A stretch of DNA of 64,000 nucleotides from NCBI RefSeq assembly GCF_023660105.1, contig NZ_JAMHGA010000038.1, forward strand, positions 1-64,000, read 5' to 3'. Made by a program: the position numbers and the translations under genes. This document shows, piece after piece, positions 59,610-64,000 of the stretch (positions are counted from its first letter, which is position 1; each line of letters begins with the position of its first letter). Under the pieces are notes generated by a model. The model did no database searches. It was not told where the DNA came from and saw only the letters and a program-made list of their open reading frames with translations. The stretch is from Desulfovibrio aminophilus (GTDB lineage Bacteria; Desulfobacterota; Desulfovibrionia; Desulfovibrionales; Desulfovibrionaceae).

Positions 59610-59647
59610 GGCTCCTTGAAGGACCGTAACCCTCAACAGGAGTCCAT

Positions 59648-60445
59648 ATGTATTTCCAGCAGATAGCCACCCCCGGCCTGGGCTGCCTGTCCTACGTGGT
59701 CGGCTGCCCGGCCGCCAAGGTCATGGCCGTGGTCGACCCCCGCCGCGACGTGCAGGTCTACCTGGACATCGCCCGCGAAGAAGGAATGCGCATCACCCAG
59801 GTGGTGGACACCCACCTCCACGCCGACCACGTCAGCGGGGCCCACGAGCTGGCCTCCCGCACCCGGGCGGAAATCCTCATGGGCGAGGGCTCGCCGGTGT
59901 CCTTCGCCTTCCGGCCCCTGCGGCAGGGCGACGTGCTCACCCTGGGCGCGGCCAGGCTCACCGTGCTCTCCACGCCGGGACACACGCCCAACTCCATCTC
60001 CCTGCTGCTGGCCGACACGGCCCGCAGCGAGGAGCCCTGGATGCTCCTCTCCGGCGACCTGCTCTTCGTGGGCGACGTGGGGCGGCCGGACCTGGCCGGA
60101 GGCGAGCTCCTGGAGGAACAGGTGCGCAACCTCTGGCGCAGCCTGCGCGAGACCCTGGGCCATTGCCCGGACCACCTGGAGGTCTTCCCGGCCCACGGCA
60201 TGGGCTCGCTCTGCGGCCGGGGCCTGAGCTCCAAGCCGAGCACGACCCTGGGCTTCGAGCGCCTCAGCAACCCCATGCTCCGGCACGAGAGCCTGGAGTC
60301 CTTCCGCGCGGCCCTGCTGGCCAACCTGCCCGTGCGGCCCAAGAGCTTCAGCCACATCATCGCCACCAACGCCAAGGGCGCCCCGCTCCTGGACCGCTGC
60401 CCGCTGGACCGGGCCATGACCCCGGACCAGTTCAGGCCTATATGA
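59648..60445 (+). CDS. Persulfide dioxygenase-like MBL-fold hydrolase (N-terminal part of a split CstB-like protein)
   Basis: 265 residues of the metallo-beta-lactamase fold. Metal ligands: THLHADHVSGAH (H-x-H-x-D-H), the His in STPGHTPNS, SGDLLFVGDVGRPDL (bridging Asp) and FPAHGMGS. It resembles the ETHE1/CstB persulfide dioxygenases that oxidise glutathione or CoA persulfides. In CstB proteins this domain is followed in one chain by two rhodanese domains; here the frame ends at 60445 in ATGA, and the rhodanese part continues in another frame. RBS AGGAG. Confidence 0.8.
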   Translation: MYFQQIATPGLGCLSYVVGCPAAKVMAVVDPRRDVQVYLDIAREEGMRITQVVDTHLHADHVSGAHELASRTRAEILMGEGSPVSFAFRPLRQGDVLTLGAARLTVLSTPGHTPNSISLLLADTARSEEPWMLLSGDLLFVGDVGRPDLAGGELLEEQVRNLWRSLRETLGHCPDHLEVFPAHGMGSLCGRGLSSKPSTTLGFERLSNPMLRHESLESFRAALLANLPVRPKSFSHIIATNAKGAPLLDRCPLDRAMTPDQFRPI

Positions 60446-61035
60446 AGAGCGGCACGGCGGTCATCGACTGCCGCGAGGCCGCCGCCTTCGGCGGCATGCA
60501 CATTCCCGGCTCGCTGAACATCGGGCTGGAGCGGCAGCTGGCCAACTGGGTGGGCATGGTGGTGGACCCGCAGGCGGACATCCTCCTGGTGACCCCGGAC
60601 GACGCGGCCTACGAGACCATGACCACCGAGCTGCACCGCATCGGCTACGACAACATCTACGGCTACCTGTCCGGGGGCATCGGCGCCTGGGTCTATTCCG
60701 GGCGGCCCGTGGACACGCTGCCGCTGACTCCCGCGCAGCGGCTCAAGGCCCGGCTCGACGCGGGCGAGCGGCCGCTGCTCCTGGACGTGCGCACCCCGGC
60801 GGAATGGGCCCAGGGCGCCATCCCCGGCGCGGTGCACGCGCCGCTCACGGACCTGCTGGAAGGACGGGCGCCGAAACCCGCCGAAGAGGCCGTGATCTAC
60901 TGCGCCTCGGGCTACCGCTCGAACATCGCGGCCTCCTTCCTGCGCCGGACCGGCGCGGCCGAAGTGAGCGCCCTGGCGGGCGGCATGCTGGCCTGGACCC
61001 GGGCGGGATTCGCCGTGGAGCAGCGGGGGACGTGA
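60442..61035 (+). CDS. Tandem rhodanese domains (C-terminal part of a split CstB-like protein)
   Basis: 197 residues from ATG at 60442, which overlaps the MBL stop. Two rhodanese domains: the first (about 5-95) lacks the catalytic cysteine (VTPDDAAYE at the usual loop); the second (about 110-195) has it in YCASGYRSN. This inactive-then-active pair is the C-terminal layout of CstB (MBL, pseudo-rhodanese, rhodanese). Adding one base between 60430 and 60440 would join this frame to the MBL gene in a protein of about 462 residues. Confidence 0.8.
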   Translation: MKSGTAVIDCREAAAFGGMHIPGSLNIGLERQLANWVGMVVDPQADILLVTPDDAAYETMTTELHRIGYDNIYGYLSGGIGAWVYSGRPVDTLPLTPAQRLKARLDAGERPLLLDVRTPAEWAQGAIPGAVHAPLTDLLEGRAPKPAEEAVIYCASGYRSNIAASFLRRTGAAEVSALAGGMLAWTRAGFAVEQRGT

Positions 61036-61061: not shown

Positions 61062-61349
61062 TCAGCGCGGCCGGAGGGAACCGGACAGTTCGGCCGCCCG
61101 GCAGAGCGGCGGCCCGGCCGGGGAGGTTTCGTCGCGGAAGCAGTGGCAGGACGTGCTCAGGGTCCGGTCGCAGCAGACCACGCGCCCGCCCCGGCAGCCG
61201 CAGACCCCGCCGTTGAACCGGCAGCAGCCGGGCCCGTCCGCCTGGACCGACTCCGCGCGGGGCTTCTCCTTTCCCGCCACGCCGGGCTCCAGGGCCCAGG
61301 CCGGGGACGCAACGGCCAGCAGCAGGACGAGCAGGACGAAATGACGCAT
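61062..61349 (-). CDS. Cys-rich secreted small protein, unknown function
   Basis: 95 residues. A signal peptide (RHFVLLVLLLAVASPAWA) is followed by a Cys-rich part: GPGCCRFNGGVCGCRGGRVVCCDRTLS, STSCHCF and PLCRAAE. With so many cysteines it is probably disulfide-bonded or metal-binding in the periplasm. ATG at 61349 follows GGAGG. It converges with the rhodanese gene and is divergent from tonB, with 68 bases between the starts. Confidence 0.6.
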   Translation of the reverse strand: MRHFVLLVLLLAVASPAWALEPGVAGKEKPRAESVQADGPGCCRFNGGVCGCRGGRVVCCDRTLSTSCHCFRDETSPAGPPLCRAAELSGSLRPR

Positions 61350-61417
61350 GGCGGACCTCCCGGTGTCCCCCTCATAGCAGCAATCGCGGCGCATCGCCAG
61401 CGGCCCGGAGCCCCGGC

Positions 61418-62155
61418 GTGACCAGCGGGCAGGGCTCCCCTCCCCCCGCCTCCGCCGGGACGCGGACACGCCCGTGGGGCCTCGGCCTGTCCGCCGCGCT
61501 CCTGGCCCTCGGCCTGCACGCCCTGGCCCTGGCGCTGCTGCTCGCCTTCTCCTCCGGCGTCGATGACGAGGAGGCGATCCCGATCTTCTATGAAATGGAC
61601 CTGACGGCCTTCGGCCAGGGCGCGGGCGGCGGGACCTCCACGGCCGAGCCCGCGCGTCCGGCTCCGGCCGTGGAACACAAGGCCCGCCCGGCCGTTCCCC
61701 AGGCCGCGCCGCGCCCCGAGCCGACGCCCCCGGCTCCCGCGAACAAATCCGAAAGACCACGGAAAGGCGGCGATTCCGCATCCCCGGCCGAGGTTCGGGA
61801 AACGCCCGCGCCGGCCGGGGCCCACGGACCGTCCGGCGGCCAGGGAACGGGCTCCGGCCGGGAGGGCTACGGCCCGGGCCAGGTGGACCGCCCCCCGCGC
61901 CTGCTGCGCCGGATCGATCCCCGCTATCCCGAGGCGGCCCGCAGACAGGGCGTGCACGGCAAGGTGGTGCTGAAGTTCCTCGTCGGGGCCGACGGCCGGG
62001 TCCGCGACATCGAGGTGGTCGAGGCCGAGCCCCCGGGCGCTTTCGAACAGGCCGCCGTGGAGGCGGTCTCGCGCTGGGAGTTCAGCCCGGCCATGCTGCG
62101 CGGAAGGCCCGTGGCGGTCTGGATGCGCGTGCCGGTCAGCTTCCGGCTGCGCTGA
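61418..62155 (+). CDS. tonB: TonB family energy transducer
   Basis: 245 residues. N-terminal transmembrane anchor (about 22-44) with LGLHALALALLL, a Pro/Ala-rich spacer, and a TonB C-terminal domain: RIDPRYPEAARRQGVHGKVVLKFLVGADGRVRDIEV to about 240. It would couple ExbB/D energy to an outer-membrane receptor, but no receptor gene is adjacent. Start is a GTG at 61418. Confidence 0.85.
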   Translation: MTSGQGSPPPASAGTRTRPWGLGLSAALLALGLHALALALLLAFSSGVDDEEAIPIFYEMDLTAFGQGAGGGTSTAEPARPAPAVEHKARPAVPQAAPRPEPTPPAPANKSERPRKGGDSASPAEVRETPAPAGAHGPSGGQGTGSGREGYGPGQVDRPPRLLRRIDPRYPEAARRQGVHGKVVLKFLVGADGRVRDIEVVEAEPPGAFEQAAVEAVSRWEFSPAMLRGRPVAVWMRVPVSFRLR

Positions 62156-62552: not shown

Positions 62553-64000
62553 ATGCGGAAATTTTTCATTGTCTTGTTTTTATTCATATTTTTTCTCAAC
62601 TTTCTGGAGCCCTCCCAGGCGGCCGACCTGCCCCTGTCCACGGACTGGAGCTTCCTGACGCCGCCCCGCCAGGACAAGCACCCGGGCGGCGGGGCCGTGG
62701 CCGTGCTCCTGCTCTCCCCGCACAAGGGCTGGCACATCTACTCCGACCGCGCCACGGCGGTGGGCCTGCCCACCCGGCTGGCCGTGGAGCTCGAAGGCTT
62801 CGGCCCCCTGCCGGTCTTCTTCCCTCCGGGCTCGGTGAAGCGCGACAAGGCCGATCCCTCGATCCAGGTGGAGACGTACCAGGGCGCCACGCCGCTCTTC
62901 GTGCCCCTGCCCGCCGAGGCCAAGCCGCCTTACCGCCTGAAGGCGTCCCTGAGTCTGCTGCTCTGCTCCAGCAGCCAGTGCCTGCCCACGACCCTGGACG
63001 TGTCCGCCGACTCCGGCCCGGAGCCGCCCGGGCAGGGCGGCAAGGACGGCTGGTGGCCGCTGTTTCCCAAGGCCCTGGAGCGCGGCCCGGTGCTCAGCCC
63101 GCTCCCGGCCGCCGCGCAGGCCGACGCCGACGTGGGCAACTGGTCGTTCACGCCCAGCTACCTCCAGCCGGAGCGGGAGGTTTCGGCGCTGTTCCCGGCC
63201 ATGCTCTTCGGCCTGCTGGCCGGATTCCTGCTCAACTTCATGCCCTGCGTCCTGCCCGTGGTCAGCCTCAAGCTCACGGCCCTGCTGCACGGAGCGTCCC
63301 GGGGGACGCACCTGCCCCGGCAGGAGCAGTTCCGCGAGCACAATCTTTTCTTCGCCCTGGGCGTGATCTGCTATTTCCTCTTCCTGAGCCTGCTCCTGGG
63401 CGGCACGGGCCTGGCCTGGGGCCAGATGTTCCAGCGGCCGGGAACCGTCCTGGCCCTGGCGACGGTCCTCTTCGCCCTGTCGCTCTCGCTCTTCGGCCTC
63501 TACACCCTGCCCATCGTGGACCTGAAGTTCGGCAAGGCCACCCGGCCGCGGACCCAGGCCTTTCTCACGGGGGTGCTGGCCACTCTCCTGGCCACCCCGT
63601 GCAGCGGCCCCTTCCTCGGCGGGGTCCTGGGCTGGGCCCTGCTCCAGCCGCCGCTGGTCATCAGCACGGTCTTCCTCTCCATCGGCCTGGGCATGGCCGG
63701 TCCCTACCTGATCATGGTGGCCAGCCCCGGGCTGGTGCGCTACCTGCCCAAGCCCGGCCCCTGGGTCGGACACATCGAGAAGGCCGTGGCCTTCTTCCTC
63801 ATGGGCACCTGCATCTACCTGCTGAACATCCTGCCGGAAAACCAGATCATCGCGGCCCTGACGCTGCTCTGGCTCACGGTCCCGGCGGCCTGGCTCATGG
63901 GCCGCGCCGGGCGGGTCTCCGGCGGGTTGAACGCCCTGGTCCTGCGGGGCCTGGCCCTGGCCGTGGTCCTGGCGGCCTTCGTCTGGGCCGTGCAGCCACG
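62553..64000 (+). CDS. dsbD: Thiol:disulfide interchange protein DsbD-like, C-terminus cut by window edge
   Basis: At least 482 residues. Signal peptide (1-24). A periplasmic alpha domain (about 25-205) contains the Cys pair LLLCSSSQCLP. The transmembrane beta domain follows, with Cys in FMPCVLPVVSLKL (helix 1) and ATPCSGPFLGG (helix 4), the redox pair that carries electrons across the membrane. The thioredoxin-like gamma domain is beyond the edge. It would supply electrons from cytoplasmic thioredoxin to periplasmic thiol proteins, including cytochrome c maturation. The alpha-domain cysteines are spaced C-x4-C. Confidence 0.9.
   Translation, partial: MRKFFIVLFLFIFFLNFLEPSQAADLPLSTDWSFLTPPRQDKHPGGGAVAVLLLSPHKGWHIYSDRATAVGLPTRLAVELEGFGPLPVFFPPGSVKRDKADPSIQVETYQGATPLFVPLPAEAKPPYRLKASLSLLLCSSSQCLPTTLDVSADSGPEPPGQGGKDGWWPLFPKALERGPVLSPLPAAAQADADVGNWSFTPSYLQPEREVSALFPAMLFGLLAGFLLNFMPCVLPVVSLKLTALLHGASRGTHLPRQEQFREHNLFFALGVICYFLFLSLLLGGTGLAWGQMFQRPGTVLALATVLFALSLSLFGLYTLPIVDLKFGKATRPRTQAFLTGVLATLLATPCSGPFLGGVLGWALLQPPLVISTVFLSIGLGMAGPYLIMVASPGLVRYLPKPGPWVGHIEKAVAFFLMGTCIYLLNILPENQIIAALTLLWLTVPAAWLMGRAGRVSGGLNALVLRGLALAVVLAAFVWAVQP

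Follow-up and report, generated by a model that had tools for sequence, protein, structure and literature searches.

A one-base frameshift in the recorded sequence of an ordinary CstB-like persulfide dioxygenase gene of Desulfovibrio aminophilus

Enzymes that join a persulfide dioxygenase (PDO) to rhodanese domains have already been published, CstB and the PDO-rhodanese fusions being treated in three sources (PMC9774590, PMC12856154, PMC6060420). The close known system is the Type III persulfide dioxygenase, laid out as metallo-beta-lactamase (MBL), pseudo-rhodanese and rhodanese domains (PMC6060420). Additionally, Rho-PDO fusions, in which an N-terminal rhodanese precedes the dioxygenase, are discussed for cable bacteria and related Desulfobulbales (PMC13047784).

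The locus studied here lies in a stretch of 64,000 nucleotides of the Desulfovibrio aminophilus genome, hereafter the window, and has the same domain order as Staphylococcus aureus CstB. However, CstB is one chain, whereas the window carries its domains on two frames. PDB entry 3r2u, listed there as 'Metallo-beta-lactamase family protein', is to our understanding S. aureus CstB and can be aligned with the protein of the closest relative of the window genome (the congener) over residues 1-439 (E 1.9e-60). The Alicyclobacillus MBL-rhodanese protein (3tp9) is a single chain of 474 aa, unlike the split window locus, and the dioxygenase-rhodanese fusion BpPRF (PDB 5ve3-5ve5) has one rhodanese domain, judging from its chain length and aligned ranges, in contrast to two in the window. 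CstB is encoded in the cst operon. A scan of eight neighbouring frames in the window revealed neither a cst-like operon nor a sulfide-oxidation operon. Among the papers listed in literature searches there was no report of a split or frameshifted persulfide dioxygenase-rhodanese, although one may still exist.

The two reading frames and their neighbours are given in Table 1. ATGA at 60442-60445 is common to the end of ORF1 and the start of ORF2, and the ORF2 frame is -1 relative to ORF1. The first-pass annotation had placed the end of the MBL part at 60445 in ATGA, with the rest continuing in the -1 frame from that same ATGA, and both its coordinates and its description are correct. The ORF2 frame is open upstream as far back as a stop at 59617, so its openness by itself is no sign of a start.

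Table 1. Features of the split cstB-like locus and its downstream neighbours (window coordinates)
Feature	Position	Strand	Description
ORF1 Shine-Dalgarno-like site	59635..59643	+	-6.9 kcal/mol, duplex energy with the 16S tail
ORF1	59648-60445	+	265 aa, MBL persulfide dioxygenase domain; stop TGA 60443-60445
Junction	60427..60445	+	shorter by one base than the congener at about 60433, followed by the TGA of ATGA (alignments)
ORF2	60442-61035	+	197 aa; ATG 60442, stop 61033-61035; pseudo-rhodanese and active rhodanese
Small protein without Pfam match	61062-61457	-	downstream neighbour
TonB C-terminal protein	61418-62155	+	downstream neighbour
DsbD-like protein	62556-63998	+	downstream neighbour

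The CstB-like layout proposed in that annotation is borne out by Pfam, which matches Lactamase_B to ORF1 (E 1.1e-10) and two Rhodanese stretches to ORF2 (E 3.1e-30). In alignments with relatives, ORF1 residues H56, H112, D137, H183 and C189 are invariant, and we take H56, H112 and D137 to be the iron ligands of a 2-His-1-Asp site, mapped from ETHE1. The second rhodanese domain of ORF2 has a CxxGxR loop in which C154, G157 and R159 are invariant, and the first is a pseudo-rhodanese that has no active Cys and is missing strand 1 together with almost the whole of helix 1. Thus two attributes of a CstB-like enzyme are present in the window, namely an MBL dioxygenase domain with a 2-His-1-Asp iron site and a C-terminal pseudo-rhodanese followed by an active rhodanese with CxxGxR. 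The third, all domains in one chain, is found in the congener but not in the window, where the frame is broken at 60433-60445. The putative activity of such an enzyme is the O2-dependent conversion of thiol persulfides to thiosulfate.

AlphaFold models the congener protein with a mean pLDDT of 93.3 and places a strand at 255-257 and a helix at 259-267 at the beginning of the pseudo-rhodanese. The first residue of ORF2 corresponds to congener Met266, so that the break falls inside this helix, and the first strand and all but the end of the first helix remain on the MBL chain. Modelled alone, ORF2 gives a mean pLDDT of 88.3 and a pTM of 0.77, with values of 78 and 74 for its first two ten-residue blocks, and its best fold match is 3tp9 (TMq 0.79). 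The same entry is the best PDB match for ORF1, ORF2 and the congener protein alike, and 3r2u is also a PDB relative of ORF1.

Relatives were compared for fused and split forms, as the first-pass annotation had proposed. Both the order and the phylum were searched with a profile built from 10 close relatives at E<=1e-60, so that stand-alone dioxygenases went mostly uncounted. Within the order, 115 of 348 genomes matched, in 116 rows, and the gene is fused in 114 of these, with an open frame of at least 433 aa. The exceptions are the window (271 aa) and G077 (170 aa; L160), a draft 43% complete whose cstB-like gene is scattered over several frames. The phylum sample gave matches in 77 of 395 genomes (78 rows), six of these genomes also being in the order search. 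Five rows have a frame shorter than 400 aa: the window, G397 and G584, where the matches reach contig ends and the genes are cut there, G418, where the match stops at residue 161 and no rhodanese match lies within the 2.7 kb taken, and G383, a genuine two-gene form in the window's own phylum. No other row of either search shows the same split, the genus being sampled by two genomes besides the window's own, and we therefore reject a split conserved in relatives; the annotation had named relatives all sharing the same split ATGA as an outcome that would tell against its frameshift reading, and the searches did not yield it.

A named collection of 80 loci gave a similar picture for the closer relatives. 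Here 28 loci are fused over their full length, L066 is a two-gene locus, L069 has 374 aa, L048 contains an in-frame stop, and the remaining 49 have no rhodanese match at E 1e-15; MBL-only proteins are common among more distant relatives. Among the 18 named loci that reach 48% identity or more over the length (L035-L052), L048 is the one exception to a fused gene. In the latter (Desulfobacteraceae Eth-SRB2), a TAA stands in frame at codon 32, in the MBL part of a cstB-like gene that is otherwise complete.

The closest relative, G001, belongs to the same genus and has a single frame of 459 aa, with one more base at about 60433. This agrees with the single-base difference that the first-pass annotation had located in this stretch, and is close to the restored frame of about 462 residues that it had calculated. 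Three genomes make up the genus sample; the gene is present in two, including the window's own, and G002, which is 87% complete, gave no match. The congener and the window are 94% identical in the MBL part and 87% identical in the rhodanese part. Their differences concentrate on one codon position, 15 of 21 to the left of the junction and 17 of 23 to the right, and the codon phase of these differences changes across the junction in the window and is single throughout in the congener. The codon-position bias on both sides indicates that the continuity of the two frames is more than chance. Based on these results, we consider it very probable that an ordinary CstB-like gene has, in this genome alone, lost one base where the MBL part ends, so that its C-terminal part now lies in the -1 frame.

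The base may be missing from the strain or merely from its record. The fused congener, one base longer at the junction, and the phase switch seen only in the window speak for a mutation. A real and recent mutation in the sequenced lineage is slightly preferred over an error, and we give it an even chance. It is somewhat less probable, though still a serious prospect, that the gene is fused as usual in the strain itself and that sequencing or assembly lost one base. The restriction of the break to this genome fits such an error, as do the draft state of the record (3.54 Mb in 45 contigs) and the downstream half, which has no visible decay; the recorded completeness of 99.99% and the junction itself, which is no homopolymer, argue against it. 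When polarized with 33 outgroup proteins, window-derived and congener-derived differences stand at 6:9 in the MBL part, 3:5 in the first rhodanese domain and 8:8 in the second, with 2 ties, in a parsimony count made without a formal test. The outgroups omit L048 for its in-frame stop, duplicates, and relatives of at most 44% identity (L015-L022 and L053 onward). Since changes of the window lineage are not in surplus past the break, the loss would be recent, false, or tolerated and harmless, and an old decaying pseudogene is rejected. Like constraint on both halves would also be expected from an error or from a functioning two-chain enzyme.

The quality of the record bears on the same question. 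A strict frameshift test required ungapped flanks of 150 columns, an open frame and third-position bias on both sides, and is blind within about 50 codons of gene ends or beside other gaps. Over 449,359 bases aligned with the congener, it found cstB as the only mid-gene frameshift, which implies an assembly that is not full of such breaks and counts against an error here. A looser test over 325,441 bases returned 15 rows, of which two were translated, two rechecked (C38 145394 and C18 199010, both between genes) and the rest judged by eye. Two of the 15 were judged intragenic, cstB and a tonB-like gene (G000:C18 at about 220374, in L178), both in the window genome; in the tonB-like gene, a 4-base difference from the congener lies next to a G run and shifts about the last 38 codons. 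No intragenic frameshift was judged real in the congener, and this second likely frameshift in the window genome slightly raises the chance of record errors. An initial screen had picked out 8 of 170 ORFs in the congener and 12 of 157 in the window genome; from the alignments, all of these except cstB were judged to fall at gene ends or starts, at a tRNA, or in spurious frames. A badly assembled genome is thus weakly supported, the strict test giving cstB alone and the looser test adding one tonB-like gene.

If the mutation is real, ribosomes would make the 265-aa MBL chain, which by its sequence keeps the dioxygenase residues, and would then stop at TGA. The 197-aa rhodanese chain would be made at most in small amounts, by reinitiation at an ATGA that has no good Shine-Dalgarno site, and the resulting persulfide dioxygenase would probably have lost most or all of the sulfurtransferase normally attached to it. 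Alternatively, termination-reinitiation at ATGA could yield the ORF2 chain, which would associate with the ORF1 chain into a working enzyme, the strand and helix of ORF1 completing the pseudo-rhodanese; we judge this improbable. Overlap of stop and start is indeed present, each chain keeps its catalytic residues, and ORF2 alone is modelled with confidence. However, when the loss of one base was simulated in the congener gene, the first stop was an ATGA at 34% of positions and ATGA, GTGA or TTGA at 57%, so that the overlap carries little weight. All Shine-Dalgarno energies were calculated with the same 16S tail, presumed to be the right one. The ORF2 ATG scores -3.2 kcal/mol, a strength equalled or exceeded by 57% of internal ATGs (n = 246) and by 75% of mechanically chosen ORF starts (n = 258), and the internal start thus lacks the Shine-Dalgarno site that is usual, if not obligatory, in coupled pairs. 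The in-frame Met at this position in the congener scores -5.9, so the ribosome site is weaker in the window, and six ATGA/GTGA overlaps found by the ORF screen on the same contig range from -4.7 to -13.0. Nor is the arrangement kept in any matching relative of the order and phylum searches.

Published work leaves some room for reinitiation at a weak site. A study in E. coli describes removal of the Shine-Dalgarno site as reducing reinitiation in 4 of 5 overlapping pairs, with a drop of 60-90% in three and a total loss in one, the fifth pair being uncoupled (PMC6728339). Dependence on the site varied very widely among overlapping pairs, according to the same study (PMC6728339), and reinitiation at ORF2 may be possible by analogy. 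Genuine two-gene versions in other genomes could also be cited in support of a working two-chain enzyme. In the Bacillota MAG DX1.bin88 (L066), the tandem rhodanese has a gene of its own after the MBL gene, and in its order the MBL gene was found in 5 of 15 genomes searched, each time with a separate tandem rhodanese next to it. We examined the ribosome site at the rhodanese gene in 6 two-gene loci, L162-L166 (G348, G729, G728, G739 and G737, respectively) and L157 (G383), which like the window have the same two parts on adjacent genes. In contrast to the window, these pairs combine strong ribosome sites (-7.7 to -10.5 kcal/mol at likely rhodanese starts judged by eye) with rhodanese genes that start ahead of helix 1 of the first domain, a helix also placed by eye. 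The weak ribosome site and the cut helix therefore count against a selected split. A shade less probable still is a real split that the species has fixed and tolerates, in which CstB would now work as two chains and the pseudo-rhodanese would be re-formed across the break, the dioxygenase chain contributing strand 1 and helix 1, as an early stage of a Bacillota-like two-gene state.

That a full-length chain is produced by programmed frameshifting or transcriptional slippage is scarcely credible. The frame downstream of the junction is open and conserved, two codons of low usage, AGG (4.3 per thousand) and ATA (1.2 per thousand), stand ahead of the stop, and the folding potential after the junction appears strong (a raw value of -34.7 kcal/mol for 60443-60520). 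However, ORF1 contains no in-frame X XXY YYZ slippery heptamer, in keeping with the earlier remark that none is obvious, and no A or T run of five or more, and the relatives need no recoding. We therefore reject a programmed frameshift. Of the alternatives posed in the first-pass annotation, we prefer the one that invokes a recent mutation or an assembly error, and nothing positive beyond the overlap was found for two subunits made by translational coupling.

Taken together, the record shows a CstB-like gene of the ordinary kind interrupted by a one-base frameshift, which is no evidence for a new two-subunit design. One frameshifted copy of the gene for a known sulfide-detoxifying enzyme is of little weight alone. 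It does carry a caution, since an ATGA overlap is often to be expected at a frameshift and should not be taken for evolved coupling. The genuine two-gene CstB-like pairs are the natural comparison for whether fusion of the dioxygenase and rhodanese parts is needed.
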